From: a virus
Length of the DNA: 36,781 nucleotides
Direction: 5' to 3' (one strand)
IMG/VR virus record: IMGVR_UViG_3300037468_000341
Location: 1 to 36,781 of that record
The position numbers were made by a program, and so were the translations under genes. The notes beneath the pieces were generated by a model that saw only the letters and a list, made by a program, of their open reading frames with translations, did not search any database and had not been told where the DNA came from. This document shows, in pieces, positions 1,116 to 30,611 of the stretch. The stretch's first letter is position 1. Each line of letters begins with the position of its first letter.

Positions 1116-1876
1116 TTCGTCGGGAACCTGCCCTCGAGGGCATCCCGAAACACCTTCTTAGTGGCCTCCGCAAAGTCTGACCGCACTACCCACTCCATGA
1201 ATCCTCGGTCCAGATCGCGCAGCTTGGTGCCAGCCTTTTGCCCGAAGGCCAGGGTCGCTTCGCCGTACCGCCAGACCACCTTGCCAGCCGGGTCGACGCA
1301 CCCTTCGGGCACAGTGTTCAGCATCGCGTCCAGCCCCTCTACGTCGCGAGGCAGGTCATGGGCGGCCAGCTGGGCCTCGAGGACGGCCAGGGTCGCCTGG
1401 GCATCGGTCAGCGCACGGTGCGCTCCCCCGTGTTCGCGACCCAGGTAGCGCCTCACAGCCGCGGACAGGTCGCGCGGCTCGGCACGGTGGAAGATCGTGC
1501 AAGCGTCGATCCGCCTACCGTCCAGCAGATCCGGGCGTACAATCCTACAACGCTTGAACTCCTCGAAGAGGAAGGCCACGTCGAAGCGGACGTTGTAGCC
1601 TGCGATGTCGCACCCCGTCAGGCCGACGGTCAGCGCCTTAGCCCAGTGGGAGAACGGCTGAGCCTCGGCCACCTCGGCGTCGCTGATGCCGTGCACGGCA
1701 GTGGCCTCGGGTGGGATCGGAATGCCGGGATTAAACAGCGACGACCACGCTGTGCGTCGCCCGTCCGGGTACAGCTTCACCAGGCCGAGCTCGACCACGC
1801 GATCTACGCGTGGATTAACGCCTGTGGTCTCCACGTCGAGACATACCAGCGGTCGGTCTAACGTAAAAAGGCTCAC
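1112..1876 (-). CDS. DEDDh 3'-5' exonuclease (DnaQ-like) with ExoX-type C-terminal domain
   Basis: A 254-residue DnaQ-fold exonuclease. ExoI is CLDVETTG (Asp14 and Glu16), ExoII is NVRFDVAFL, and ExoIII is HRALTDA, the His-x4-Asp form that defines DEDDh enzymes. After the nuclease (about residues 1-175) comes a module with LAFGQKAGTKLRDL and a WVVRSDF segment. This resembles the small C-terminal domain of exodeoxyribonuclease X-like proteins. The polymerase in this operon already has its own proofreading domain, so this separate nuclease probably acts in repair, recombination or primer removal. The chosen GTG at 1876 overlaps the previous stop as GTGA; a GTG at 1885 would add three residues. 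Confidence 0.85.
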   Translation of the reverse strand: MSLFTLDRPLVCLDVETTGVNPRVDRVVELGLVKLYPDGRRTAWSSLFNPGIPIPPEATAVHGISDAEVAEAQPFSHWAKALTVGLTGCDIAGYNVRFDVAFLFEEFKRCRIVRPDLLDGRRIDACTIFHRAEPRDLSAAVRRYLGREHGGAHRALTDAQATLAVLEAQLAAHDLPRDVEGLDAMLNTVPEGCVDPAGKVVWRYGEATLAFGQKAGTKLRDLDRGFMEWVVRSDFAEATKKVFRDALEGRFPTK

Positions 1877-2346
1877 GGCCTCCACCCGGATTTTTTTAAT
1901 ATCTTAGCAATCTCAGGCGGTTTCCAGCCGTGAGGCTTCACTACGTCGAACGTGCTGTTTCGCTTGGAGTCCTGGGCCTGCGCAGCGCGGCACTTTGTCA
2001 TGTTCGCACGCTGTACCTCGGCGAACAGCGCAGACCACGGAAGAGCGTGAAGTTGAGCAGTGCCAAGAGCGACGTAAACTAGGTCAATCAGCGCATCTGC
2101 CACTTCGGGCAATTTCGTTTCGGCGTACTTCCTACGGAAGAACATGAACTTGGGCTGAGCGCCGGACGCCCACTCGATCGTTAAAGCGTACCCGTACCCA
2201 CTTGCTAACTCGAGGAGCTCCTCGAGCAAGAAGTTTAGCCGAAACTCGATCAGCTTCCGGGGAATATCGTGAGGAGGTCCGTCATCGATCGTCGGGAGTT
2301 CAAACTTCTGGTGAAAGTCGCCTACTAGTTCAAAGTCGGTCTTCAT
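1873..2346 (-). CDS. MazG-like / all-alpha NTP pyrophosphohydrolase
   Basis: A 157-residue, mostly helical protein. It has the metal-binding pattern of the all-alpha NTP pyrophosphatases: an acidic LLEELLELASG helix at about residues 39-49 and EVADALIDLVYVALG at about 80-94 (Glu and Asp on one face). HALPWSALFAEVQRANMTK follows and is typical of phage MazG/HisE relatives. The family converts dNTPs to dNMP and pyrophosphate. In phages with modified cytosine a pyrophosphatase of this kind, such as T4 gp56, removes dCTP and supplies dCMP. That role is attractive here because a dCMP hydroxymethylase-like gene lies nearby, but specificity cannot be read from the sequence. The gene overlaps the upstream stop by 17 bases and has a GAGG ribosome binding site. 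Confidence 0.75.
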   Translation of the reverse strand: MKTDFELVGDFHQKFELPTIDDGPPHDIPRKLIEFRLNFLLEELLELASGYGYALTIEWASGAQPKFMFFRRKYAETKLPEVADALIDLVYVALGTAQLHALPWSALFAEVQRANMTKCRAAQAQDSKRNSTFDVVKPHGWKPPEIAKILKKSGWRP

Positions 2347-3508
2347 CGCTGTGTCCTCGAATAGGGGGGAGAGAACTCACGCCCCAATGTCTACGGTTGT
2401 AGCGAAAATCGGCGATATGGTTGGCCTCGACGACTAGCTCGTAGCTCGACCCGGGCTTACAGCCGTGGCATGTGCAGTCTGTAGCATGTGAAACTCCGAG
2501 GTTGGTGAAAATCTGCCCGAGCACCCACGTAGCGACGGCGGGGATGACACCCTTTGAGAGAAACACGCGCATGCTTCTACGGCTCGAACCTGGAAAAATG
2601 TAGTCGTGCGGAAAACCCATGATTCGCTTGTATGCCGCTTCACTCAAATTGCGTCCGTTCATATAGAACCAGGAGCCGCCCATCACGCAAGGAGCAAGTC
2701 CGCTCGGCTCGAGATAGCACAGCTGTCCGCTGCCGAAGTTGCCCAATACTTCTTTAGTCATCATTAAATCGTGATCGTCGGCATATATTCGGCGTTGAAA
2801 TGCGCGCATGATGCTCTGCGTTTTCTGTGGGTGATTGCCGGCATCGAAAAAAAATGACATGTCGTCGTCCGTACAGCCGGCCTCTAACAGCTTTTCTTTC
2901 AGTCTGCCTAGCAATACTCCCGTATTGCCACACTCCGGACCGTCTTCGTGAGGCCCAACAGCTTGTGCGACGGTTTGAAAGGTAGGGGCCAATCGAAGCT
3001 TGAGTTCTCTGTTAGACACTGCACCTCGACGCATCCACACCGCCCAGAAACGTTCACGCCACTGTGGCGCGAACATCGAACCGCTCTGCAAAATCCGAAA
3101 TAAGTCGTAATCGCGGCGGTCTGCATAAGCTTGGTGCACCTCCCACGCTCCGGACAACGCGCCCGTCACTGACTCGACAGCGACAGCTAGTACGCGATTG
3201 CTCATCGTATAATCTAGCACTCGCTTAGTGCAAGCGAAGGCTTCACTGTTGGTCCCCCGCGCCGTCTCTGAGTTGTTCTGTACGCTAAACGCGCTACACG
3301 GGGGGTGCGCGAGCACTACGGTCTCTGAAAGGTCTTGCTGAGGCCAGTCTTTTAGCCGCGCGATAGTCTCGATCTCTGGGAAGTTAGCCCGCTGGATCGG
3401 TGTGCCGAAGCCAGCGTCCTCATAGGAACCGGTGATCTCAGCGATGCCGAGCGCTCTCGTCCCGAGCAGCAATGAACCGCCGTATGTGTTGATGATCAGC
3501 GTTTTCAC
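2330..3508 (-). CDS. Divergent DNA cytosine-C5 methyltransferase homologue
   Basis: A 392-residue protein with the order of C5-cytosine methyltransferase motifs. The catalytic loop is PPCSAFS at residues 69-75 (nucleophile Cys71). Motif VI is ESV at 112-114 instead of the usual ENV. Motif VIII is QWRERFW at about 149-155. The end carries RIMGFPHDYIFPG and SKGVIPAVATWV, matching motifs IX-X. Motif I is poor: NTYGGSLLLG replaces the usual FxGxGG. The Cys and Glu needed for attack at cytosine C5 are kept. It may be a methyltransferase protecting the genome or a relative that places another C5 group. A C-terminal cluster DCTCHGC may bind zinc. The start is GTG, overlapping the upstream TGA (GTGA), with an AGAGAGG ribosome binding site. 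Confidence 0.75.
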   Translation of the reverse strand: MKTLIINTYGGSLLLGTRALGIAEITGSYEDAGFGTPIQRANFPEIETIARLKDWPQQDLSETVVLAHPPCSAFSVQNNSETARGTNSEAFACTKRVLDYTMSNRVLAVAVESVTGALSGAWEVHQAYADRRDYDLFRILQSGSMFAPQWRERFWAVWMRRGAVSNRELKLRLAPTFQTVAQAVGPHEDGPECGNTGVLLGRLKEKLLEAGCTDDDMSFFFDAGNHPQKTQSIMRAFQRRIYADDHDLMMTKEVLGNFGSGQLCYLEPSGLAPCVMGGSWFYMNGRNLSEAAYKRIMGFPHDYIFPGSSRRSMRVFLSKGVIPAVATWVLGQIFTNLGVSHATDCTCHGCKPGSSYELVVEANHIADFRYNRRHWGVSSLPPIRGHSDEDRL

Positions 3509-3669: not shown

Positions 3670-4004
3670 GACTGACTCCTAATCCAGGCTACTACTGTTT
3701 CGTGGCCTGTGCCGTTGACCACTACGTTACCTAACGGATCGACAATTGTTACAACGCTCTTACCGCTATAAACTACGTACCAACATCGCCCAGCTAATGC
3801 GAGACGCTGAATCGTGAGCGCCTGCACTCCGCGGCCAACGATGCGGCCTACCTTCACCTCGAGCCAAGTTGTTCGGCCGTTCCACGTCACGCTGATGTCG
3901 GGAATCCCGGCCGTCAACGCGTCGGCGTGCTTAAACACCACGGACCCAGGCAAGCGTGAGCGAAGCATCTTTACGAGGCCGTTTGAGTAGACCGACTCTT
4001 TCAC
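3666..4004 (-). CDS. VRR-NUC domain nuclease
   Basis: A 112-residue single-domain protein of the VRR-NUC branch of the PD-(D/E)xK nucleases. Visible core elements are an N-terminal KESVYSNGLVKML helix, the GIPD motif that carries the metal-binding Asp, WLEVKVG with the Glu-x-Lys pair, and a VQALTIQRLALAG helix that supplies the conserved Gln. Stand-alone VRR-NUC proteins are common beside phage DNA polymerases and helicases and are thought to act as structure-specific or Holliday-junction nucleases. The GTG start at 4004 overlaps the polymerase TGA (GTGA), with GGAGG before it; a TTG at 4019 is less likely. Confidence 0.85.
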   Translation of the reverse strand: MKESVYSNGLVKMLRSRLPGSVVFKHADALTAGIPDISVTWNGRTTWLEVKVGRIVGRGVQALTIQRLALAGRCWYVVYSGKSVVTIVDPLGNVVVNGTGHETVVAWIRSQS

Positions 4005-5773
4005 TCTGCCTCCGCCCAATTAGCACCCGTCTTAGCATCCCAGAGGATCGGCACGCGCAAATCGAACGACTGACGATTTAAGATCTCGGTCACTCGAGCC
4101 GCGGCCTCGATGTCAGGCACGTCGCCGCAGACCTCGTCGTGCACAGTCATGCGCATCACGAAGCCGGTGTTCTTTCGCGCGTGGTGAAGCTCGACTAGTT
4201 TACGCTTCATGATGTCGGCCGCGCCGCCTTGGATCACGCCGTTCAGTGCCTTGTGAAGTCTCTCACGCTGTGGAAAGCGAGTACGTCGACCGAGGAGCGT
4301 CTTGACGTAACCACGCGTTTCGGCCGCGTGGGACGCGCGCTCAAGGAGAGCGTCCACCCCGGGGATGATCTGCCGGTATAGCGCGTTGAGCTTAAATGCG
4401 GCATCCTCGGTGATGCCCGCTGTGAGTGCGATCTTACGTACCCCGCCCCCGTAGATTTTGCAAAAGTTCGTATTTTTGACAACCTTGTAGAGGATGCTCG
4501 GGTTGAACTGTGCAATGAACTCGTGAATCAGCTTATGAAAGCTGGCACGCGGGTTTTTGCGGTACTCCTCAAGCACCTTCTCATCGTTAAGGTAGTGAGC
4601 GAAGATCCTGTACTCAATCTGCGCGGCGTCAGCCTTGTAGAAGAGGCCACTCGCGGGCACGAACAATTCACGCACGATAAAGCGATCACCGAAGGCCGCG
4701 CGTTGCTTTTCAACCGCCATCACTTGCTGAATGTTGCGATCGCTTGCGCTAAAGCGCCCACTGATTGTTCCGCCCTCGTCGGTGCGTAACTGATGTAAGT
4801 TGTAGGTCAGTCGGCCGTCAGGTAGCACTTCAGCAAGGTACGGCACTAAGTACTTGCTGCGTAGGCTGCTGAGCTTACGTGCGCGCCGTACTTGGGCTAC
4901 TGCCTCATCTTCGACGCTCGCTAAGACTTCATCGGTGAAGCTAAACTTGCCAGTCTCGGTGAAGTGTGTGAGCGGCAAGTCGCGCGACCTAAACAGTCGT
5001 ACTAAGTCATCGTTCGACTCAGGACTAACACTCACTCCTGATAGTTCGTGGATCTGCCACAAAGCTCGGATCAGTGACTGTTCAGACTCAAGGTTCCAGC
5101 GACGCAACTTAGTGATGTCTAATGGCGCAGCGTTACGCTCCATCTCGCACACAGCGAAGATTAGTTCGTCTTCGAGATCACACACATGGCGTAAGTCTTG
5201 CGCCTCGAGTTGCGGATTCATCGCATCGAGAAGTTCGATCACCAGCGTCGCGTCGCGTCGTGCGTAGTCGGCCACCTCACCGGCGTGATAGTAACGCATC
5301 TTCGAGGGGTCTACGCCCTTCACCTTGCCACGTCCGAGAAAGTCCTGCGAGACCTGTTCGAGGTTGAACTTGCGACGGTGGTCATCGAGCAAGGCGGCAT
5401 AGTGTTGTACGTCGCCGAGTGTACAACTCAAGTCCTCGAGGTCCTCACCCCACGCGTGCGCCATGTGCGCATCGAACTTGGTGTTAGCGCCCACAAGACG
5501 CTTGCCGCGTAGTTCTGTGCGGAACCAGCGCCGCACCACGTCTTCAGCGAGGTTGCCACCATTGTGACCGAAGGGTAGATAGCGCGACTCGACCTTCTCG
5601 CCTTCTCGCCACGCGACCGCCACGCCTAGCGGCTTATCACCGTCCCGCCAGCGCAACCCGGTCGTTTCGAAGTCGAGGGCCACCTCTCGTACGCCGCTCA
5701 AGGTGGGAGGACTATCAGGTCTCCAACCTGGCATCGTTCGTGTTTCTACACCTTCGAACAGATCTCGCTGCAC
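4001..5773 (-). CDS. Family A DNA polymerase with 3'-5' exonuclease domain
   Basis: A 590-residue replicative polymerase of the Pol I family. The N-terminal third is a proofreading exonuclease with LDFETTG (ExoI), GANTKFDAHM (ExoII) and YARRDA (ExoIII). The polymerase domain has motif A as DAAQIEYR (usually DYSQIELR, so Tyr-Ser is replaced by Ala-Ala), motif B ending in NFCKIYGGG, and motif C VHDE with the catalytic Asp. There is no 5'-nuclease domain, as usual for phage enzymes. The GTG at 5773 is chosen over a TTG at 5791 because a consensus -10 box lies between them; the mRNA probably begins at this GTG. The gene heads the leftward replication operon and is GTGA-coupled to the VRR-NUC gene. 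Confidence 0.93.
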   Translation of the reverse strand: MQRDLFEGVETRTMPGWRPDSPPTLSGVREVALDFETTGLRWRDGDKPLGVAVAWREGEKVESRYLPFGHNGGNLAEDVVRRWFRTELRGKRLVGANTKFDAHMAHAWGEDLEDLSCTLGDVQHYAALLDDHRRKFNLEQVSQDFLGRGKVKGVDPSKMRYYHAGEVADYARRDATLVIELLDAMNPQLEAQDLRHVCDLEDELIFAVCEMERNAAPLDITKLRRWNLESEQSLIRALWQIHELSGVSVSPESNDDLVRLFRSRDLPLTHFTETGKFSFTDEVLASVEDEAVAQVRRARKLSSLRSKYLVPYLAEVLPDGRLTYNLHQLRTDEGGTISGRFSASDRNIQQVMAVEKQRAAFGDRFIVRELFVPASGLFYKADAAQIEYRIFAHYLNDEKVLEEYRKNPRASFHKLIHEFIAQFNPSILYKVVKNTNFCKIYGGGVRKIALTAGITEDAAFKLNALYRQIIPGVDALLERASHAAETRGYVKTLLGRRTRFPQRERLHKALNGVIQGGAADIMKRKLVELHHARKNTGFVMRMTVHDEVCGDVPDIEAAARVTEILNRQSFDLRVPILWDAKTGANWAEAE

Positions 5774-5779
5774 GTTGTT

Positions 5780-5808
5780 ATTATACCACAAGTTTTAAAC
5801 AGTTGCAA
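5780..5808 (-). promoter_or_regulatory. Sigma70 promoter of the DNA polymerase operon (leaderless start)
   Basis: On the minus strand TTGCAA (5808-5803) and a perfect TATAAT (5785-5780) are separated by 17 bases. The spacer contains GTTTAAAACTT, which recurs in the promoter near 14.88 kb and, with one change, in the ligase promoter. Only six bases (AACAAC) lie between the -10 box and the GTG of the polymerase. The expected +1 is therefore the start codon itself, and there is no ribosome binding site. The -35 box lies inside the end of the deaminase gene. Confidence 0.8.
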
Positions 5809-6232
5809 TAGTAAGTTGAATACCACTTCGGGCGAGCAACTCTACACCTACGACATCGGCGTACGGCTCAGTACACACAATCTTACGAATGGGGGTATTA
5901 CACAGCACGAGAGCGCATGCTCGGCAAGGAGCACACGTAACGTAGAGCTTGTGCGCGAGATCGAGCCGGTGACACTGCAACAACGCGTTAATCTCAGCAT
6001 GCACTGCCTCGCACCGCCTCGTATCGCCTGGCGGGTCATTAGCGCCTGGGCAAGGCGAGGCTGTACAGTGTGTAAAGCCAGAGGGCGGTCCATTATACCC
6101 GGTCGCTAACACACGGTTGCGCCTATCTATGAGGATCGCTCCGACAGCCCGACGCGCGCACGTACTACGTTGGGCTACGAGCCTCAACCAGGCCGTAAAG
6201 TAGGCATCGTGTTCTAAGCGTCCAGACGGCAT
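5795..6232 (-). CDS. dCMP/cytidine-type deaminase (ComEB-like)
   Basis: A 145-residue zinc-dependent deaminase. HAEINALLQC supplies the zinc His and the catalytic Glu, and TCAPCRACALVL supplies the PCxxC zinc cysteines. The N-terminal half has CARRAVGAILID and ATGYNGPPSG, typical of dCMP deaminases and late competence protein ComEB relatives. A PCPGANDPPGD segment lies between. In phages the reaction dCMP to dUMP feeds dTMP synthesis, and in T4 it works together with dCMP hydroxymethylase. No allosteric site can be judged. The ATG at 6232 follows a 53-base gap after the glycosyltransferase stop, with only a weak ribosome binding site. Confidence 0.88.
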   Translation of the reverse strand: MPSGRLEHDAYFTAWLRLVAQRSTCARRAVGAILIDRRNRVLATGYNGPPSGFTHCTASPCPGANDPPGDTRRCEAVHAEINALLQCHRLDLAHKLYVTCAPCRACALVLCNTPIRKIVCTEPYADVVGVELLARSGIQLTIATV

Positions 6233-6279: not shown

Positions 6280-6299
6280 CCTCTACTAGCTGGTAGAGG
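6280..6299. other. Small hairpin overlapping the glycosyltransferase stop codon
   Basis: CCTCTAC (6280-6286) and GTAGAGG (6293-6299) can form a 7-bp stem with a 6-base loop around the TAG stop at 6286-6288. No T-run follows on either strand. It may slow decay or partly terminate the long sugar-cassette transcript before the deaminase gene, but it does not meet intrinsic terminator criteria. Confidence 0.4.
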
Positions 6300-7485
6300 A
6301 GGTCTCAATAGCGGCCAGAACGGCCCCGGCGCCATCGGCCAGCCTTTTGCGGCTAGCGAGCAGGTACTCCCACTGCATCACAGCATATCGTTGCCACGTA
6401 GCGTCGTCGAGCGCGGCCAGTCTCTCTCGTAGTCGTTCAGGCGACCACAGCGTGAGGTAATTCCTTAGCTCTTCAGGCATCGGGCCGTAGATGTGGTTCT
6501 GATCATCGTACTTCGAAGCCCTGAAGCACAGTGTCCCTGCGGCGAAGCATTCCCATGGCTTTGCCGTTGCCCACCCAGTATTAAACGCCGGGAAGGTGAT
6601 TGTAGTCTTCCACCGAGTTAGCACCGCATTGACAGTCGTTAGCGGCACGGGATAGACCTCCCGGCCTAGCACTGCTTGACTCTTAGGGGTCCACGTGCCA
6701 AAGATCTCCCACTCAAATGGCAAAGGCTTGAGCCACTTTAGTGTCAGCTCGAGTCGCGAGTTGGGATGGTCGGTTCGTCCCTCGTTCACCATGATCCCAA
6801 AGAGTCGCCGCGGCGTCTCGAGGTTCAGTGAGTCGCACGGCGGTACCGCCAGCAGTTCGATCCCAGCATACTGATACCCGTACGAGCCAGTCTTGAGGCG
6901 ACCGTCTCGCTCGTCGTAAAAAGTAGCGCTCTTACTGCACCGATACTGTGCCAGCACAGGTCTCTGTTTAGTGTTCCACACGTCTCTAAACTTTACCGTG
7001 TTGCGCGGGTCTGGGCACAGCCAGATCGGAGTTGCGTCGTGTGCGTTGATCGCGTGCACTACGGGATAGCCGTAACTCACTAGCGAAATCAGCGGTGATG
7101 TGGTGCCGTCCTTAGCCTTACAGCCCTGAACGGCAGGAATGGGGTGTAAGCTTGAACCGTGCTGGCCAAGCCACACAACCCAGGCATCGAACCGTGGCAG
7201 CTTAGTCACCGCCTCGTCGAGAAACGCCTTGAACGCGAGATACTGCGGATCGGTCGACTCACGCCCGGCGGGCGGGCACTCGAAGTATGCCCCGCCCTCC
7301 GCCCAGTGGTTCACCACGTTAGAGAGGGTCGCGTCGCATTGGTTGCGGCCTACGAGGTGAACTTCGTAGCGTTCGCGCAAAGCGTGCAGCAACCTGATGA
7401 CCTCAGAGTCGCCTCCGACGTTCGACGCGTTCTCTAACATTAGAGGAAAGGACCGGCCTAGCTTTGCGTACGCTATTCGTTTCAT
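6286..7485 (-). CDS. GT-B fold glycosyltransferase of the sugar/nucleotide cassette
   Basis: A 399-residue protein with a GT-B layout. The N-terminal half has VGGDSEVIRLLHALRE and EVHLVGRNQ, a GT4-like opening. The C-terminal half has TAKPWECFAAGTLCF, in the place where GT-B enzymes bind the nucleotide diphosphate and carry the conserved Glu. A long insertion fills the middle (about residues 120-230). It is the last gene of the sugar cassette and its ATG overlaps the nucleotidyltransferase stop by four bases, so the two are made together. The simplest reading is that it transfers the group activated by the preceding enzymes. Hydroxymethylcytosine in phage DNA is the favoured acceptor because of the dCMP hydroxymethylase-like gene in the same operon. 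A cell-surface or virion acceptor cannot be excluded. Confidence 0.75.
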   Translation of the reverse strand: MKRIAYAKLGRSFPLMLENASNVGGDSEVIRLLHALRERYEVHLVGRNQCDATLSNVVNHWAEGGAYFECPPAGRESTDPQYLAFKAFLDEAVTKLPRFDAWVVWLGQHGSSLHPIPAVQGCKAKDGTTSPLISLVSYGYPVVHAINAHDATPIWLCPDPRNTVKFRDVWNTKQRPVLAQYRCSKSATFYDERDGRLKTGSYGYQYAGIELLAVPPCDSLNLETPRRLFGIMVNEGRTDHPNSRLELTLKWLKPLPFEWEIFGTWTPKSQAVLGREVYPVPLTTVNAVLTRWKTTITFPAFNTGWATAKPWECFAAGTLCFRASKYDDQNHIYGPMPEELRNYLTLWSPERLRERLAALDDATWQRYAVMQWEYLLASRKRLADGAGAVLAAIETSSTS

Positions 7486-8147
7486 AGTGCCTCTGGTATG
7501 CCGAAGTCCTCACAGTGCATTGGCAGCGCGACTAACGGCCCGCCTGGGTGTGCCGCTTCGATTAACTGAGCAACGCTTCTTATTCCCCTGGTATACAAGG
7601 CCGTTCGTAAGTGATTCGTGGGCAATAGCAGAGGCCCGATCCAGCACGAGTCTCCCGGCTCTGGGTCGTTAGTGTCGATAACTTTCAGCACCGCCCCGTA
7701 GTCATCAACAATAAGTCTCGTGAAGCGTTGACGATCCTCGAGTTGACGAGACGCGATAAATGCAGAGTGAGCCTCGAGAACGGGAGGTACTATCTCATTC
7801 GGCGAGAATGTGTTGTCAGCACAGAGGATCAGCGTGTGCTGGCTGTTAAAGAGTCCCCGGTCAATGGCGTCTATCACGCCGAACGGTTTGGGCTGTATGA
7901 CATACCTAAATCCGTTGTCACACACATCACAGATCGGCTTAACGTTGTCGGGACTCGCGACGACAGTGACCCCGTTGACGTGCCACCAGTCGAGTGCGTG
8001 TCGAATCGCGTGCTGGATCAACGGACGACCGTTGACGAGCATTAACGGTTTTAGCGAGGTCGGAACGATTGACTTCAGTCGATCGTTAGCCCCGGCTGCA
8101 AGGATGATTGCGTGAAGAGGAAGTCCTCGGGGCTCATTACTTTCCAC
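7482..8147 (-). CDS. Sugar-1-phosphate nucleotidyltransferase-like protein (NTP_transferase fold)
   Basis: A 221-residue protein of the NTP_transferase/MobA-like group. HAIILAAGANDRLKSI at residues 12-27 is the nucleotide-binding signature, although the second Gly of the usual LAAGxGxR is Asn. Next come SLKPLMLVNGRPLIQHAI, QPKPFGVIDAI (residues 85-95), and a metal-binding Asp at about 111 in LILCADNTF. The family joins a sugar-1-phosphate, or phosphocholine in LicC, to an NTP to give an activated donor and pyrophosphate. The GTG at 8147 overlaps the HAD gene by 73 bases, and the signature motif itself lies partly inside the overlap, so the overlap is real. Its pairing with an APH-fold kinase recalls AmgK/MurU and LicA/LicC. 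The substrate is unknown. Confidence 0.8.
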   Translation of the reverse strand: MESNEPRGLPLHAIILAAGANDRLKSIVPTSLKPLMLVNGRPLIQHAIRHALDWWHVNGVTVVASPDNVKPICDVCDNGFRYVIQPKPFGVIDAIDRGLFNSQHTLILCADNTFSPNEIVPPVLEAHSAFIASRQLEDRQRFTRLIVDDYGAVLKVIDTNDPEPGDSCWIGPLLLPTNHLRTALYTRGIRSVAQLIEAAHPGGPLVALPMHCEDFGIPEAL

Positions 8148-8557
8148 GGTGTTCTCTTTGCAATGACAACCCGTGCGGCGTCATTATCATCAACATAAAT
8201 TCCTTCTCCTCGTTGGCACAGCCACGTGATCTTTTCTTCAAGAGTCGCGCTCACGAAAGCCACGTTGAGCCGACACCGAAATAACTCTTCGATGGCGTCT
8301 ACTGCTTGCTGAGATGCGCTCGTCAGAATGTAACACTGGCGCAGGACGGCATAGTCGAACAAAGCCGTTTTCTTAGCATAGAGACGTAACGTGGTTGGGT
8401 ATGCCGCTACCTTCCGCTGGTGTGCCCCGCGCGCGCACCACTCGTGCCAGGGTCGCCCCCACTGACTGTCGGTCAGCACCACTCCGGCTAGCGCGTAGGC
8501 CTCCTCGACAGCGCGGCGCGTGTCGACTAGCGTACCGTCTAGATCAAAGACCAACAC
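8075..8557 (-). CDS. HAD-superfamily hydrolase (probable phosphatase)
   Basis: A 160-residue HAD protein with all four motifs. Motif I is VFDLDGTLVDT (nucleophile Asp5, acid/base Asp7), motif II is YILTSAS (Thr79/Ser80), the motif III Lys is in LEEKI (about 109), and motif IV is IYVDDNDAA (Asp123-124 and Asp126). There is a small cap of about 50 residues. The second Asp of motif I marks phosphatases. Because it lies between a kinase and a nucleotidyltransferase, it may remove a phosphate from a sugar bisphosphate, as GmhB does in NDP-heptose synthesis. Removal of an unwanted nucleotide is the alternative. The GTG start has GGGAGAG upstream and overlaps the kinase stop by 14 bases. Confidence 0.82.
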   Translation of the reverse strand: MLVFDLDGTLVDTRRAVEEAYALAGVVLTDSQWGRPWHEWCARGAHQRKVAAYPTTLRLYAKKTALFDYAVLRQCYILTSASQQAVDAIEELFRCRLNVAFVSATLEEKITWLCQRGEGIYVDDNDAARVVIAKRTPWKVMSPEDFLFTQSSLQPGLTID

Positions 8558-9230
8558 GGCTCAACACTCTCCCAAACTTAACGGCCACTTCGGACTCCTG
8601 ATAGCGTAGCAAGCGCACGATGTGAACGTAACACCACGTTGTCGCCTCCTCGAGGTCGACGCCAGCTAAGCTAGTTAGCTTAGCTGCTAGAGACTCGTCG
8701 AACTCAGGTTCACAGCCGTCCATCAGCACACGCTCATAACCCCAACACGATTGTAGCACCTTGCCGAGGTCGACGCGGCAGTCGTTCGGTATGTAGGATC
8801 GCTCAAGGGGATCGCACCAGACCCAACCTCGTCTAACGTCGTGCAGCAGGTTTGCGAGCGTCGCGTCACCATGAATGCAGCACGAACGCTCCGCGTCAGG
8901 AAGTGCGTCTACCAGCTTAGACGCGCTAGGCCGGAGCGTCCTGAGGTGAAGAAACAAGGACGCGCGCCAGTCCTTATGAGGAGCAGCTCGAAGCCACAAG
9001 CTTTGTAGTTTTTCAATCCCCGAGGTCAAGGCGACTTCGATCTCTGTAGGGTCCGCTGGCCGCAGCCGAGGCATCACCAACAGCCCAGTGTCGTACCAAC
9101 AGACTTCAACAAAGACGTCTGGGTGCGCTGACATAAAGCGCGCCTGAACTTCGGCATCCTCACACCGCTTGTGAGCGAAGGCTCTCGTCAGCGTTACCTC
9201 ACTGTGGCCGCGACTCCACAGAGGTTTCAC
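8544..9230 (-). CDS. APH/choline-kinase-fold small-molecule kinase
   Basis: A 228-residue protein of the aminoglycoside phosphotransferase fold. The catalytic loop CCIHGDATLANLL has the HGDxxxxN signature (His120, Asp122, Asn127 from this start), and WVWCDPLE carries the metal-binding Asp of the DFG-like position (Asp140). The N-terminal lobe is short. Relatives phosphorylate aminoglycosides, choline (LicA), homoserine or free sugars (AmgK). With a nucleotidyltransferase two genes downstream, sugar or amino-alcohol phosphorylation is more likely than drug resistance. The GTG at 9230 overlaps the synthase TGA as GTGA and follows a GAGAG ribosome binding site. An ATG at 9290 would add 20 residues but has no clear site. 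Confidence 0.78.
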   Translation of the reverse strand: MKPLWSRGHSEVTLTRAFAHKRCEDAEVQARFMSAHPDVFVEVCWYDTGLLVMPRLRPADPTEIEVALTSGIEKLQSLWLRAAPHKDWRASLFLHLRTLRPSASKLVDALPDAERSCCIHGDATLANLLHDVRRGWVWCDPLERSYIPNDCRVDLGKVLQSCWGYERVLMDGCEPEFDESLAAKLTSLAGVDLEEATTWCYVHIVRLLRYQESEVAVKFGRVLSRVGL

Positions 9231-10054
9231 AGTGCTCTCAACAGCGTTAGCGGCATAGGGTCTGTCAAAGCTCGGCTGTAAGTCGTCCACGTGAACGGAG
9301 CACTAATCGGTATCTCATCTTCACCAGTTAGCACTTTTTCGAGCCACGTCGGTGGCGGTTCGGTCAATCGCGGAGACTCCACGATCTCAAGGGAATCCGG
9401 CGCTTTCAACACCGCCCGTGCATCCTCGAGGTTGATGTCGTAGAGGTGACTCGAGCCGAGGTTAAACGATACCCAGCCTACCTGCGCGCTCAGTTGCGCG
9501 GCTAAGATGTTTGTGAACATTGAGAAGTTGAAAAAATCGTAGGGTAGCCCGAGCCAGATGTCAGAACTGCGCATCGTCACGACAGCGTTGAGTCGGCTGT
9601 CGCGCAGCAGGAACTGCACTGAGATCGTGCACGGCACGTCCTTCGTCGGACCTGTAGGCGGACGATAAATGGCTATCACCGCCTGCCGGGTGTCAGGGTC
9701 CGTCTTCAGCGCCTCGAGGACTCGAGGCCACTGCACCGTCACGGGTGTGCCGTACGCACCGTTGAACGTAATGCCGTCATCGCTGAAGTCAGCGATGCGC
9801 CGGTTGTACCGCGCGATCGTTGCTACGTCAGCGCGACCGTACCAGATCCACAGCCACTCTGCGACGGCGAACTTATAGCTGAGACGGCGAGCAGGGTGAA
9901 CGAGAAGGTTGCGCAGTCCGTTCTGAACGGTTAGCCTAACGTTCATCAGTTCGCGGTTCGTTAGTCCTCGAGGAGATCGAACGTCGCCGAACTCTGTTAA
10001 GCTCCTAAGAAGGTAGAACCAGGCCGTGCCAAAGTCGTCTCTATGAAACTCCAC
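9227..10054 (-). CDS. Thymidylate-synthase-family enzyme, probable dCMP (hydroxymethyl)transferase
   Basis: A 275-residue thymidylate synthase superfamily member. The nucleophile is Cys142 in KDVPCTISVQF. The phosphate/base motif is MRSSDIWLGLPYDFFNF at 161-177, and SSHLYDIN (about 201-208) is the HxY loop. The key point is Asp173 in LPYD. Thymidylate synthases have Asn here (E. coli Asn177, L. casei Asn229) to read uracil, while dCMP hydroxymethylases have Asp. PCT instead of PCH is also seen in hydroxymethylases. I therefore infer hydroxymethylation of dCMP, giving 5-hydroxymethyl-dCMP. The GTG start has a strong AAGGAGG site and overlaps the upstream kinase by 14 bases. dUMP as substrate is the alternative. 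Confidence 0.82.
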   Translation of the reverse strand: MEFHRDDFGTAWFYLLRSLTEFGDVRSPRGLTNRELMNVRLTVQNGLRNLLVHPARRLSYKFAVAEWLWIWYGRADVATIARYNRRIADFSDDGITFNGAYGTPVTVQWPRVLEALKTDPDTRQAVIAIYRPPTGPTKDVPCTISVQFLLRDSRLNAVVTMRSSDIWLGLPYDFFNFSMFTNILAAQLSAQVGWVSFNLGSSHLYDINLEDARAVLKAPDSLEIVESPRLTEPPPTWLEKVLTGEDEIPISAPFTWTTYSRALTDPMPLTLLRAL

Positions 10055-10937
10055 AGGCCTCCTTCAAGAGCGCCGCGTATCCATCCAGATCGTGGCGGTG
10101 AAAGCGCTTCCAATATTGCGGGTGCGGAACGCGCTGGACACGCTCGAAGCGCTGGTGCTCGCAGACTCGTGCGGCGCGCTCGCCCAGTGCAACGATCCGC
10201 AGCGACTGACCGCGCGCGTTGAGACGCGGGAGCCGATTCTCAGTCTCGTCTGCTCGCCGTGAGTTGAGCCACAACACGTCGCTCTCAAGTACGCCAGCTA
10301 GGTCGAGCGCGTCGGTCAGATAGCGGCTACACCCGCCGTTATTAAAGAACGGTAGGTCCAGACCCGTGGTGTTGCTGACAATGTCTCCGACTAACGAGAC
10401 TAGCGCGTGAGGGTCCCCTATGACGCCGGGCGCTTCGATCAGTGGGCGTGGTTGGACCAACTCGTACTTTAACGTATCATACGACACTCTCACGTGGTCA
10501 TACACCAGCTGGTCCGCGTTGCTCGCGATGTAATAGCCGTAGGCCGCGTAAGTGCGATAGAACGTCGCAGGATCACGAAACAGCTCGGGCTTTTCGTGAG
10601 CTCGCCAGCGCTCGAAGCACAGGTCTAAGGGTGGCAGACAAATCACCTGGCGTGCCCCCGTTGCGATGAGCAACCGCCGAAAGACGCGCCACCCGTCGTC
10701 ACCTAGACGGTCCCGTCCCCGGATCGGCGGGCCGTACACGCGTTCACCGAGAGCAAGCCGGTCTAACACCACATTGCGTCCTCGCCAGCCCTCAAGGACG
10801 CGCCCGTAGTGAACGAGCGGAGGTACCTCGGCGGGTGGAACTCCCTCGTGGTGATACTCGAGGGTGAGATCCTCGCACAGCCGGCGTGCGAGAGTGGTCT
10901 TGCCTGAACCGTCAGGGCCCTCGAGGATGATTATCAG
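10041..10937 (-). CDS. Deoxynucleotide kinase fused to a uracil-DNA-glycosylase-like domain
   Basis: A protein of about 298 residues with two domains. Residues 1-160 are a thymidylate-kinase-like P-loop kinase: ILEGPDGSGKTTLARRL, then VVLDRLALGERVYG and a lid region RWRAHEKPELF. Residues about 178-298 resemble the UDG superfamily: SLVGDIVSN, LPFFNNGGCSRYL, a hydrophobic VLWLN strand, IVALGERAARVC and VPHPQYWKRF. The catalytic GQDPYH-type loop is replaced by GDIVSN, so glycosylase activity is doubtful. The kinase probably makes the diphosphate of the modified nucleotide, as T4 gp1 does. The start is uncertain. CTG at 10937 follows GGAGGAG, overlaps the upstream stop as CTGA and gives the classic MIIILEGPDG opening; a GTG at 10958 would add seven residues but lacks a ribosome binding site. 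Confidence 0.8.
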   Translation of the reverse strand: MIIILEGPDGSGKTTLARRLCEDLTLEYHHEGVPPAEVPPLVHYGRVLEGWRGRNVVLDRLALGERVYGPPIRGRDRLGDDGWRVFRRLLIATGARQVICLPPLDLCFERWRAHEKPELFRDPATFYRTYAAYGYYIASNADQLVYDHVRVSYDTLKYELVQPRPLIEAPGVIGDPHALVSLVGDIVSNTTGLDLPFFNNGGCSRYLTDALDLAGVLESDVLWLNSRRADETENRLPRLNARGQSLRIVALGERAARVCEHQRFERVQRVPHPQYWKRFHRHDLDGYAALLKEACGVS

Positions 10938-11227
10938 AACTCCTCCGGTCCGGCCCACGTTGGCGCGGGAGGTGTGAATGGGAATAGCTCAGGGTGCTTC
11001 GGTGCATAGTAGTCCTGCAGTGCGATGACATGTGAACAAGCTGAGCCACGATGCACCGCCCAGTCACACCCACACCGTGCGGAACCAATTACACCACTGA
11101 TGCCTAATGTCACTGTGTAGGTCTTGCCGCTGCCGGCGGAGCGCACAAGGAAGATGTCCAGATCCTCGGTCCTCGACACGTCATGCTTGGCCGCGATGGC
11201 CAGAACGCGGGCGGAGGGTGCGCTCAT
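10934..11227 (-). CDS. SWIM-type zinc-finger protein, 97 aa
   Basis: A 97-residue protein whose centre reads ARCGCDWAVHRGSACSHVIAL, the CxCx(n)CxH arrangement of SWIM zinc fingers. Two short strands before the finger (IFLVRSAGSG, YTVTLGISG) and a helix after it (HVIALQDYY) complete the fold. SWIM domains bind DNA or proteins and occur with recombination and chromatin factors. Alone in a phage the protein may bind DNA or one of the cassette enzymes. The ATG overlaps the preceding stop (ATGA) and GAGGGAAC lies upstream. Confidence 0.75.
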   Translation of the reverse strand: MSAPSARVLAIAAKHDVSRTEDLDIFLVRSAGSGKTYTVTLGISGVIGSARCGCDWAVHRGSACSHVIALQDYYAPKHPELFPFTPPAPTWAGPEEF

Positions 11228-16042: not shown

Positions 16043-16105
16043 GCAGAGGGGGCCCGCTTCGGCGGGCTTAATGCACACACCCGGTCCCAAGTCCGGGTGA
16101 GGAGG
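16043..16105 (+). ncRNA. Structured leader element, copy B (cis-regulatory RNA candidate)
   Basis: GCAGAGGGG, then a 6-bp hairpin closed by a UUCG tetraloop (GCCCGC/GCGGGC at 16052-16067), TTAATGCAC, and a 6-bp hairpin ACCCGG/CCGGGT (16079-16098) with loop TCCCAAGT, followed by the GAGGAGG ribosome binding site. Against copy A, the first stem changes length and sequence yet stays paired, and the closing G-C pair of the second stem is A-T here. Linker and loop are identical. Confidence 0.7.
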
Positions 16106-16108
16106 AGA

Positions 16109-17077
16109 ATGACAATGACTGCCAACATCGCAACCATCAACGGTAAGGCCGCGGTGGCCTACCAGGGAGCCACGCCGTGGCACCGACTGGGCACGCCCAT
16201 GTTCGGGTTTCCGGACGTCGAGGGGGCCCTCAAGGCCGCGTCGCTCGACTGGAACGTCACGCTCGAGCCGCTCTTCGTGAAGAAGAGCGACGGCAAGTTC
16301 CGCTCAACGAAGACCTCGCACCGCGCCGTTGTGCGCGACTGCGACAGCGAGATCCTCGCAGTGGTCACCAGCCAGTACGTTCCCATCCAAAACCACGAGG
16401 CCTTCGGTGTGCTCAACACCGCGTGCCGCGAGTTCGGGATCACCATCGAGACCGCCGGCGCCCTCGGCAAGGGCGACCGAGTGTGGGCCCTGGCCAAGTT
16501 GCCCGACTCCATTCAGCCCGTTCCGGGTGACAAGGTCGAGGGTTACTTCTTGATCACGAGCGGCCACAACGGCTGGACACCTTACACCGCGCGCCTCACC
16601 CCGATCCGAGTCGTCTGCCAGAACACACTCACGGTGGCCGAGCGCCAGTCCGACGCGATCGTCAAGCTGGTACACGTCCGCACGGCCGTGCAGGAACTCG
16701 AGGTCGTCGCGGCGATGGTCACCAACCTCGTCCAAGCGCTCAAGGTGACGGGAGAGACCTTCACTGAGCTCGCTCGCAAGAAGATCACCAACATCGACGC
16801 GTACGTGGACGGGGTCCTTGGGATCAAGGACATCACCACGCTCTCACAGCGCGCCTGGCTCCGGCGGGACGACATCCGCCGGTACTTCACCGAGGGGATC
16901 GGTGCTGACCTCGCTCCCAAATCTGCGTGGGCGGCCTACAACGCCGTTACGCAGTACATCGATCACACCCGCACCGCCACGTCCCCCCGAGTCCTTAAGC
17001 AGGCGGACCAGTCAGCCCTGTTTGGGCAGGCCTCTCGTCTCAAGCTGAAGGCCTTGCAGCTCGCCATCGCGGCCTGA
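16109..17077 (+). CDS. DUF932 / TIGR03299 phage-plasmid protein
   Basis: About 322 residues. The opening AAVAYQGATPWHRLGTPM and the middle NGWTPYTARLTPIRVVCQNTL are hallmarks of the DUF932 (phage/plasmid-like TIGR03299) family, and the C-terminal AWAAYNAVTQYIDH also fits. The family is widespread on phages and plasmids, often beside replication or early genes, but its biochemical role is not established. Two ATGs are possible, 16109 and 16115. The second is better spaced from AGGAGG. The gene has its own copy of the structured leader and ends the operon before a strong hairpin. Confidence 0.88.
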   Translation: MTMTANIATINGKAAVAYQGATPWHRLGTPMFGFPDVEGALKAASLDWNVTLEPLFVKKSDGKFRSTKTSHRAVVRDCDSEILAVVTSQYVPIQNHEAFGVLNTACREFGITIETAGALGKGDRVWALAKLPDSIQPVPGDKVEGYFLITSGHNGWTPYTARLTPIRVVCQNTLTVAERQSDAIVKLVHVRTAVQELEVVAAMVTNLVQALKVTGETFTELARKKITNIDAYVDGVLGIKDITTLSQRAWLRRDDIRRYFTEGIGADLAPKSAWAAYNAVTQYIDHTRTATSPRVLKQADQSALFGQASRLKLKALQLAIAA

Positions 17078-29105: not shown

Positions 29106-29449
29106 ACCCCAACCTCCTCACGGATGCTTGCGGCTAAGTCTGCGGCGAGGGTCGACGCCGCAGCCATCAACGGCTTCTCGAGATACTTCGCCTCCCCTAC
29201 CGTGTGTCGATAGTCCAGCCGTTCATGTTGTGGCACAGCATACGCACCGGCTGGACCACCGAAGCCGAGCGTCACGCGCAACTCGCCATCAGCATTCAGC
29301 TCAACATACCCCGAACCACGCAAAATTCCGTCCTTCACGGGAACAAAGTGCTCTTTGCTGCGAGCCATTATGAGCTCCGCCTGCCGATAGAGCGCTCGGC
29401 GCGCAGCATCAGGATATCTCTTAGCCAGTTGTCGAAAAGTTTCAGGCAA
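29102..29449 (-). CDS. HK97 gp10-like neck / tail-completion protein
   Basis: 115 residues. ALYRQAELIMARSKEHFVPV, then DGILRGSGYVEL and LGFGGPAGAYAVPQHERLDY are the helix-strand pattern of the HK97 gp10-like family, which sits in the neck and joins head and tail. The C-terminal helix carries EKPLMAAASTLAADLAASIR. The start is TTG, overlapping the glycosyltransferase stop, with GGAG upstream. This coupling ties the glycosyltransferase into the structural transcript. Confidence 0.85.
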   Translation of the reverse strand: MPETFRQLAKRYPDAARRALYRQAELIMARSKEHFVPVKDGILRGSGYVELNADGELRVTLGFGGPAGAYAVPQHERLDYRHTVGEAKYLEKPLMAAASTLAADLAASIREEVGV

Positions 29450-30611
29450 CTTTCCGCTCCGCCATCACTAGTTCAAACTCCTCGGCATGCCGCTCCCCAA
29501 TATCGCGCCAACAAAAGCGTGGCTCTGCCGCTAACGCCAGACCAAGATCTCTGTACTGCCGTCTGACTGAATCACGTGCGTACAGTGATTGGAGCGCCAA
29601 TACAAATGCCGTCTGATCCGGCAGTCCACCAATCGCATTTATCCCAAATGGCGTAACTGATCTCGTTGGACAATGAATCATACAAGCAGCGTCCTTCGCC
29701 CATTCACCTAACGCTGACCATTCCGGAACGATCTGCGGTATTCCGCACGCCATTCCTTCCAGAGTCGTAAGGCCCCATCCTTCGCCTTGCGTAGTGGTGA
29801 CTTGCACGTCCATCGATGAGTAGACAACTCGCATGAAATTCTCTTGAAGACCCGAGCCAATGTGGGGTTCAATGAGAATCAAACGCTTGCCCTCTTCTCC
29901 GCGGAATCCATAGTAACGCATCAGCTGTTTGATGTCGTAACCAGCCTCGCCAGTCGGAGCAACGTGCAGAAGCAGATATGCGTCGTCATTGTGATAACGT
30001 CGTATCCAGTCTGCGAAATACTCGATCGTAAGGTCAAGACGCTTACGTGGTTGATTTCTATTGACATTTCCCACGATGAATGCGTCATTAATCTTCTCAG
30101 GTAATCCGAGAGCCTTCCTCGCTTCTATTCGCGGGATTGGCTTGTACATTTCCAAATCCACGCCCAACGGAATCACCGCCGCACGACCAGAGTAGCCTCC
30201 TGCACGCGCTTCGTCCATCCCGAACTGTGTCCAGAAGATCGCCAAGGTCAGACGTCCCTCGAGCTTGTCTGAACGACAGTTTTTCCCATCTACGGGCATG
30301 ATCGCCACGATAGGAACGTTCTTATCCTTGAATTCGTCCAGATACGCTGGAACATTCCATGGGTCGTTTTGAATCACCACCAGATCTGGTTCGACGCGCT
30401 CACATATGCTCTTCACACGCTTCACGCCGAACACGTCCCCTCCGGGCCAGCACGTGTAGACCTTGTATGGCCACTCGTGTGGATCTCCTAGATAATTCAA
30501 CCCCAAGACATGAACCTCCCATGTCTTGCGCAACACATCCAAGACGTGGTGTGTCACCTTTGCGAATCCGGTCGCGACGCAAGCATCGCCGACCCAGAGC
30601 AACTTTCTCAC
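29442..30611 (-). CDS. GT4-family glycosyltransferase inside the head-tail module
   Basis: 389 residues with full GT-B/GT4 features. The N-terminal WVGDACVATGFAKVTHHVLD is the acceptor-side Rossmann start. GNVNRNQPRKRLDLTIEYF is the linker, and TTQGEGWGLTTLEGMACGIP supplies the E-x7-E motif that binds the nucleotide sugar. Family members are retaining enzymes using NDP-hexoses. The gene is coupled by GTGA and NTGA overlaps to genes for connector and neck proteins, so it is made late with the virion. Possible acceptors are capsid or tail proteins, or modified bases in packaged DNA. It is distinct from the glycosyltransferase at 6286-7485. Confidence 0.88.
   Translation of the reverse strand: MRKLLWVGDACVATGFAKVTHHVLDVLRKTWEVHVLGLNYLGDPHEWPYKVYTCWPGGDVFGVKRVKSICERVEPDLVVIQNDPWNVPAYLDEFKDKNVPIVAIMPVDGKNCRSDKLEGRLTLAIFWTQFGMDEARAGGYSGRAAVIPLGVDLEMYKPIPRIEARKALGLPEKINDAFIVGNVNRNQPRKRLDLTIEYFADWIRRYHNDDAYLLLHVAPTGEAGYDIKQLMRYYGFRGEEGKRLILIEPHIGSGLQENFMRVVYSSMDVQVTTTQGEGWGLTTLEGMACGIPQIVPEWSALGEWAKDAACMIHCPTRSVTPFGINAIGGLPDQTAFVLALQSLYARDSVRRQYRDLGLALAAEPRFCWRDIGERHAEEFELVMAERKVA

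Follow-up and report, generated by a model that had tools for sequence, protein, structure and literature searches.

Arabinose is carried in the DNA of phage RB69 and its relative NP, and both groups of authors proposed that an RB69 gene cluster makes the arabinose donor (PMC6024577, PMC13390438); a 5-hydroxy-dCMP synthase has also been reported for Mosigvirus phages (PMC13390438). Phage T4 glucosylates 5-hydroxymethylcytosine (5hmC) by means of gp42, gp1, gp56, and a beta-glucosyltransferase, using host UDP-glucose, and lacks donor-synthesis genes. In metagenomic phage clusters, Pyle et al. in 2024 reportedly found pathways that begin with a methyltransferase and TET oxidation of cytosine in DNA, with glycosyltransferases (GTs) that add varied sugars to 5hmC. 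The subject here is a cassette at 6286-10958, on the minus strand, of the IMG/VR viral record IMGVR_UViG_3300037468_000341 (36,781 bases; the whole of this stretch is called the window). In all likelihood it is a hypermodification operon, in which 5hmC DNA is glycosylated with a nucleotide diphosphate (NDP)-sugar made by the phage; the enzymatic activities are inferred from protein families, residues, the GT fold, and linkage. Already known kinds are glycosylated hydroxymethylcytosine, donors made by the phage itself, as in RB69, and the metagenomic GT pathways that include accessory sugar genes (Pyle et al., Cell Rep 43:114631, as cited in PMC13216743). What is new is a T4-like hydroxymethylase and a GT resembling T4 DNA beta-glucosyltransferase (BGT) combined with an RB69-like donor module, in an unannotated GT family. 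Also new are the signs of exchange of the donor block and of its sharing across transferases and pyrimidines.

Read along the minus strand, the genes are those for a nucleotide kinase (KIN), a thymidylate synthase (TS)-family hydroxymethylase (HMase), an APH-fold kinase (APH), a HAD phosphatase (HAD), a nucleotidyltransferase (NT), and the GT (Table 1). Neighbors overlap by 14, 64, 14, 73, and 4 nt, in that order, with the first start codon used; the 64- and 73-nt overlaps are possibly shorter if later start codons are used. The original prediction, made from the sequence alone, had seven coupled genes at this place. Its overlaps, all its named activities, and the intact motifs held, and the count is six. 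A chance assembly is excluded because the same set is found, in a rearranged order, at another locus (L002; loci are numbered in this form) and because the APH/NT core recurs in 52 non-redundant loci.

The HMase matched Pfam family PF00303 (4.6e-22), and its closest solved structure is a CMP 5-hydroxymethylase (1.9e-24). It was aligned with Escherichia coli ThyA, T4 gp42, RB69 ORF048c, and the SP8 synthase (SPO1-type, dUMP-type). E. coli TS position 177, the residue that decides between cytosine and uracil specificity in the TS family, is Asp in the window HMase and T4 gp42 and Asn in ThyA and SP8. With Asp rather than Asn at this position, a dUMP-type synthase (hydroxymethyluracil hypermodification) was rejected. 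The catalytic C146 and the folate-side D169 and G173 are intact as well, and from its folate-site residues the window synthase looks like a true hydroxymethylase. A TS-family synthase is encoded on 27 of the 28 contigs that carry the GT family, and all 27 have D177, C146, D169, and G173. D177 in the window and in these 27 GT-linked synthases, together with the T4 BGT-like model of the GT, points to a cytosine-type base and sustains the predicted cytosine hypermodification. It is quite improbable that the synthase yields 5-hydroxy-dCMP, with the sugar joined straight to the C5 hydroxyl, as in RB69. RB69 ORF048c is homologous to the HMase (hhalign, 99.3) and keeps D177, and the Mosigvirus 5-hydroxy-dCMP synthase (PMC13390438) is a precedent. 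However, the folate site of ORF048c has N169/V173 in place of the D169/G173 found in the window and in all GT-linked synthases, the nearest solved relative of the HMase is a hydroxymethylase, and the GT is BGT-like with no detectable kinship to the proposed RB69 arabinosyltransferase ORF003c (Aat; hhalign, 0.2%). An RB69-type 5-hydroxylase was rejected on the intact folate side.

In the proposed pathway, the HMase would convert dCMP to 5-hydroxymethyl-dCMP, and the P-loop kinase and host nucleoside diphosphate kinase would carry this to the triphosphate. The MazG-like enzyme would remove dCTP, the dCMP deaminase would send surplus dCMP to dTMP synthesis, and the family A phage polymerase would place the modified dCTP in DNA, giving 5hmC DNA. 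KIN matched the thymidylate kinase profile phrog_761 (6.7e-13) and aligned with the kinase of Enterococcus phage 9183 (hhalign, 96.2). The positional counterpart of the MazG-like gene in GT loci, c7, has a profile that includes RB69 gp56 (dCTPase). At L005 (6994-7971) a MazG-like domain seemingly forms the N terminus of the kinase, a fusion that supports a joint action of dCTPase and nucleotide kinase. The C-terminal half of KIN contains a UDG-superfamily domain, with homologues at L003 (7061-7990; PF03167 UDG, 7.5e-8) and L004 (7060-7983); the L002 kinase is without this domain.

The GT had no match in Pfam at E≤1, the beta-glucosyltransferase family PF09198 included, and its PHROG match was weak and uninformative. 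An AlphaFold model was built from 34 sequences (predicted local distance difference test score [pLDDT], 86; predicted template modeling score, 0.87) and compared with 350,542 PDB chains. The top match was T4 BGT (1nzd; E, 4.6e-9; template modeling score, 0.55/0.62), T4 alpha-glucosyltransferase was also among the matches (rank 36), and among viral models a "DNA beta-glucosyltransferase" ranked second. An hhalign profile alignment (76%) paired the GT with the C-terminal region of T4 BGT, with the invariant KPWE falling on RVWE. As modeled, the GT is BGT-like in fold and lies outside PF09198. An Aat-type identity was rejected on the hhalign result given above. A profile search of genome contigs gave no confirmed relative of the GT, and so no host or prophage; the GT and HAD profiles found no match among the sequences of solved structures, and tblastn of the window GT found none among phage records. 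Enterococcus and Pseudoalteromonas relatives alone linked it to known phages. When viral contigs were scanned by pattern and profile, the GT family came to 40 and later 62 loci; such scans work with short conserved patterns and give a biased sample.

The donor genes were placed by several kinds of match. The NT matched PF12804 (7.8e-11) and GlmU/RmlA-type NCBIfam models (3e-11). Family alignments showed HGD-x4-N and DP to be invariant in APH, whose homologue at L009 matched PF01636 at 4.6e-4, and DLDGTL, T-x-AS, and YxDD (YVDD) to be invariant in HAD. RB69 and its Mosigvirus relatives, with their arabinosylated cytosine (5-ara-dC), have the most similar module: a D177 TS-family synthase, a P-loop kinase, an NT, an APH-like kinase, and a HAD-type gene beside replication genes. 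Besides ORF048c, hhalign paired ORF052c with APH (95.0), ORF053c with NT (94.8), and ORF045c with KIN (94.5). RB69 differs in its KpsF/GutQ-type SIS isomerase (ORF055c), a 5-hydroxy-dCMP synthase without the folate-site residues, an EcbF-type HAD (ORF051c), and the unrelated Aat. T4 shares the dCMP hydroxymethylase residues, a nucleotide kinase, a dCTPase-like enzyme, a deaminase, and the BGT-like fold, but not the donor genes. The pathways of Pyle et al. differ in that the window precursor would be made as a nucleotide; no Tet_JBP domain was found for the window, a search in which the control genomes gave no signal either. The AmgK/MupP/MurU salvage pathway has the same logic of an APH-fold anomeric kinase, a HAD phosphatase, and a nucleotidyltransferase, but the window has no above-threshold matches to it and its context is DNA modification. 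The NT scored 25 bits against each of the MurU and HddC models (cut-offs, 250 and 300), and the AmgK and MupP models found no match in window proteins. T4 and AmgK/MurU, which the original prediction had taken as precedents, are not the nearest ones; the RB69 arabinose module, with its homologues of NT and APH, is.

In parallel with the making of 5hmC DNA, the APH-type kinase would phosphorylate a sugar or sugar phosphate at its anomeric carbon, HAD would strip the other phosphate, and the NT would make the NDP-sugar. The phosphatase may act first (as MupP does before AmgK) or the kinase may (as in the heptose pathway). The BGT-like GT would move the sugar of the NDP-sugar onto 5hmC in DNA, where it would protect the DNA from nucleases.

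Loci were collected with an APH profile, and NT was counted with an NT-only profile. Of the 52 non-redundant APH loci, 48 have an NT nearby, 29 an adjacent HAD, and 49 a replication or nucleotide-modification gene; the three without such a gene are all short contigs. It is very improbable that the GT and its donor genes serve to decorate the virion or the surface of the bacterium instead of DNA, with the hydroxymethylase adjacent by chance or co-regulation. Surface sugar clusters do exist in phages, as a cyanophage review describes (PMC7824862), and a second glycosyltransferase, of the GT4 type (phrog_2170, 6.9e-26), lies among the virion genes of the window at 29442-30611, where it may serve virion decoration or add a second sugar. 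Against this stand the synthase on 27 of 28 GT-bearing contigs, each of the dCMP type, the 49 of 52 APH loci just given, and a DNA glucosyltransferase as the nearest solved fold to the GT. The donor set is common to other base-modification loci, which likewise argues against surface decoration, and this was rejected on the linkage to synthase and replication genes.

Two different donor blocks occupy the slot beside the GT. Among 65 GT loci, some of them near-duplicates, a nucleotidyltransferase block is present in 21 (plus the window) and an RGP-like block (PF03214), in many cases also with an NAD-dependent epimerase/dehydratase (PF01370), in 36; no locus has both. Seven of the remaining eight stop at most ∼180 bases from the GT, and L066 is without either block. 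On a GT tree with duplicates removed (52 rows), the block type switches at least four times among the 46 labeled rows, and a quick tree likewise gave four switches; some forks are weak, the tree is uncertain, and four is accordingly a lower bound. The same transferase with either of two sugar blocks is expected if both blocks feed the GT. RGP proteins include plant UDP-arabinopyranose mutases, and RGP-like proteins can also be transferases; both donor blocks could end in arabinose. A T4-like process, in which host UDP-glucose supplies the glucose for 5hmC while the kinase, HAD, and NT do something unrelated, would agree with the BGT-like GT and the T4-like specificity residues of the synthase, and with three NT-slot loci (L011, L012, and L045) that are without APH and so have an incomplete donor set. 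It is nevertheless most unlikely, since T4 has no need for donor genes, all GT loci with enough downstream sequence except L066 have a sugar block adjoining the GT, and the blocks are mutually exclusive and swapped on the GT tree. The linkage of the kinase/HAD/NT set to the GT and its blockwise exchange with another set of sugar genes support the earlier proposal that the phage makes its own donor, and the co-occurrence of donor genes in other phages, suggested as a check, was found among the 65 GT and 52 APH loci.

The kinase-phosphatase-nucleotidyltransferase trio also occurs beside other transferases. At loci of the L113 type it adjoins another protein, 412 amino acids long, that looks like a transferase but matched nothing in Pfam; the synthases of these contigs have D177. 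TAGT transferases (PF20691) stand directly before APH at L107 (7258-8049), L141 (6722-7564), and L137 (4171-4962), with the identity confirmed by Pfam in L107 and L141; the synthases of the TAGT-linked trio loci (L107, L141, and relatives) have N177 and are of the dUMP type, suggesting, from these residues, phage-made donors for 5-hydroxymethyluracil (5hmU) too. With D177 and N177 synthases and several transferases as partners, the module is bound to no one base or transferase. NT and APH are a single protein at L020, L024, L026, L028, and L029, with an SIS gene adjoining. Three of the four APH loci without an NT end close to the APH gene. The fourth, Agathobaculum phage AB434P2 (L103, 1314-2853), has HAD and APH fused and, next in line, a PF01467 cytidylyltransferase as a non-homologous stand-in for the NT in the same cassette. 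We give even weight, for and against, to the broader proposal that the trio is a portable phage sugar-activation module, fused, rearranged, or partly replaced, that serves three or more kinds of transferase, and 5hmC as well as 5hmU, with a phage-specified sugar (probably a non-host pentose), and that here joins a T4-like base and transferase to an RB69-like donor.

The best guess for the sugar, a tentative one drawn by analogy, is a pentose such as arabinose, because sister modules have a KpsF/GutQ-type isomerase and because the arabinosylated RB69 has homologous kinase and NT genes. An SIS isomerase was found in RB69 and in the sister contigs of L024, L026, and L029, and the L029 copy is of the KpsF/GutQ type (6.3e-22). 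It is about as likely that the donor is not a pentose and comes instead from MurNAc/GlcNAc salvage (AmgK/MupP/MurU), is an NDP-heptose, or is an activated non-sugar such as CDP-choline. The Gmh/Hdd heptose pathway also pairs a kinase, a HAD, and a nucleotidyltransferase, and the PF01467 fold of the Agathobaculum phage enzyme occurs in HldE and TagD as well. The trio follows the AmgK/MupP/MurU logic too (PMC5371407), and the weak MurU and HddC matches of the NT, far under the cut-offs, fall on the same side. On the other side, the KpsF/GutQ isomerase beside the NT-APH fusions would convert a ketose phosphate to an aldose phosphate, which suits a pentose or a heptose but neither MurNAc nor choline, and arabinose is present in the DNA of RB69, whose genes are homologous (PMC6024577, PMC13390438). 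Choline or MurNAc as the first choice was rejected on the isomerase in sister modules.

Several points weigh against a phage-made donor and glycosylated 5hmC in the window. First, no SIS isomerase (PF01380, KpsF/GutQ type) was found in the window record. To call the cassette self-contained, as had been done, is therefore an overstatement, and the sugar would be drawn from a host sugar phosphate; arabinose 5-phosphate is made by Gram-negative hosts, which may not apply to the host of this phage. Second, APH (PF01636, 0.023) and HAD (PF00702, 6.7e-5) are weak as single sequences, under the Pfam cut-offs. The AlphaFold model of APH reached a pLDDT of only 55, and its kinase fold is for this reason argued from motifs and profiles. 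Third, the BGT match is at the level of the fold (12% identity) and could reflect a generality of GT-B folds, though it ranked first. Fourth, a C5-methyltransferase as a constant partner is puzzling if no cytosine C5 is left free. Finally, the window contig, like the other contigs, may be a fragment.

Five cultured phages have the GT, an HMase, and kinase-type donor genes: Enterococcus phages 9183, Planchet, and TJE4, Pseudoalteromonas phage XG4, and AB434P2. Phage 9183 encodes in a row a kinase, a TS-family synthase, a dUTPase, a HAD, an NT-APH fusion, and the GT (hhalign, 98%; E, 1.6e-13). Planchet has the same gene order, TJE4 has the same GT and NT-APH genes, and XG4 has a synthase, an NT-APH fusion, the GT, a C5-methyltransferase, and a dCTPase-like gene. 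A search of one literature collection found no report of DNA modification in the three Enterococcus phages or XG4. These phages are where RB69-type donor synthesis is testable and the chemistry of the cassette measurable. Restriction enzymes, like CRISPR nucleases, are blocked by sugars on phage cytosine, and hosts evolve glycosylases and type IV enzymes that recognize these sugars. Swapped as a block, a donor module would let phages alter the sugar and leave base and polymerase unchanged. The trio recurs in dozens of phages, cultured ones among them, and a family of BGT-like transferases that had been unannotated is named here.

The tape-measure, head, and tail genes of the window are on the same strand as the cassette. 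The dCMP deaminase gene follows 53 nt past the GT, and then come, in order, the family A polymerase gene and those for a small nuclease-like protein, a C5-methyltransferase-like protein, and the MazG-like protein, the last ∼4 kb beyond the deaminase. The deaminase and the MazG-type pyrophosphatase had both been placed close to the cassette before, and Pfam and PHROG profiles now match each of them. The C5-methyltransferase family (PF00145) is present at most GT loci (L009, L026, L049, and others), often as two pieces or copies; its substrate may be host DNA or cytosine that stays unmodified, or it may take part in a different reaction.

TABLE 1 Genes of the cassette and of the adjoining region of the window, with the matches that identify them
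Feature	Position	Strand	Basis
KIN, P-loop (d)NMP-kinase-like, presumed 5-hydroxymethyl-dCMP kinase, with C-terminal UDG-superfamily-like domain	10041..10958	-	phrog_761
HMase, TS-family dCMP hydroxymethylase	9227..10054	-	PF00303; CMP 5-hydroxymethylase structure; D177
APH-fold sugar kinase, presumed anomeric (C1) kinase	8544..9290	-	Motifs; PF01636; RB69 ORF052c
HAD phosphatase, presumed sugar-phosphate phosphatase	8075..8557	-	PF00702; family-invariant motifs
NT, sugar-1-phosphate nucleotidyltransferase	7482..8147	-	PF12804; GlmU/RmlA-type NCBIfam; RB69 ORF053c
GT, GT-B-fold DNA glycosyltransferase, T4 BGT-like	6286..7485	-	AlphaFold model; PDB match
dCMP deaminase	5795..6232	-	PF00383, 2.6e-17; phrog_174, 8e-36
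Family A DNA polymerase with 3'-5' exonuclease domain	4001..5791	-	PF00476, 1.4e-49; PF01612, 2.6e-6
C5-cytosine methyltransferase-like protein	2330..3508	-	PF00145, 4.3e-7
MazG-like nucleotide pyrophosphatase, presumed dCTPase	1873..2346	-	PF01503 (PRA-PH), 2.2e-10; phrog_671, 8.9e-23

The one gene identified on the plus strand of the window, at 16097-17077, encodes a DUF932 protein (1.9e-40).

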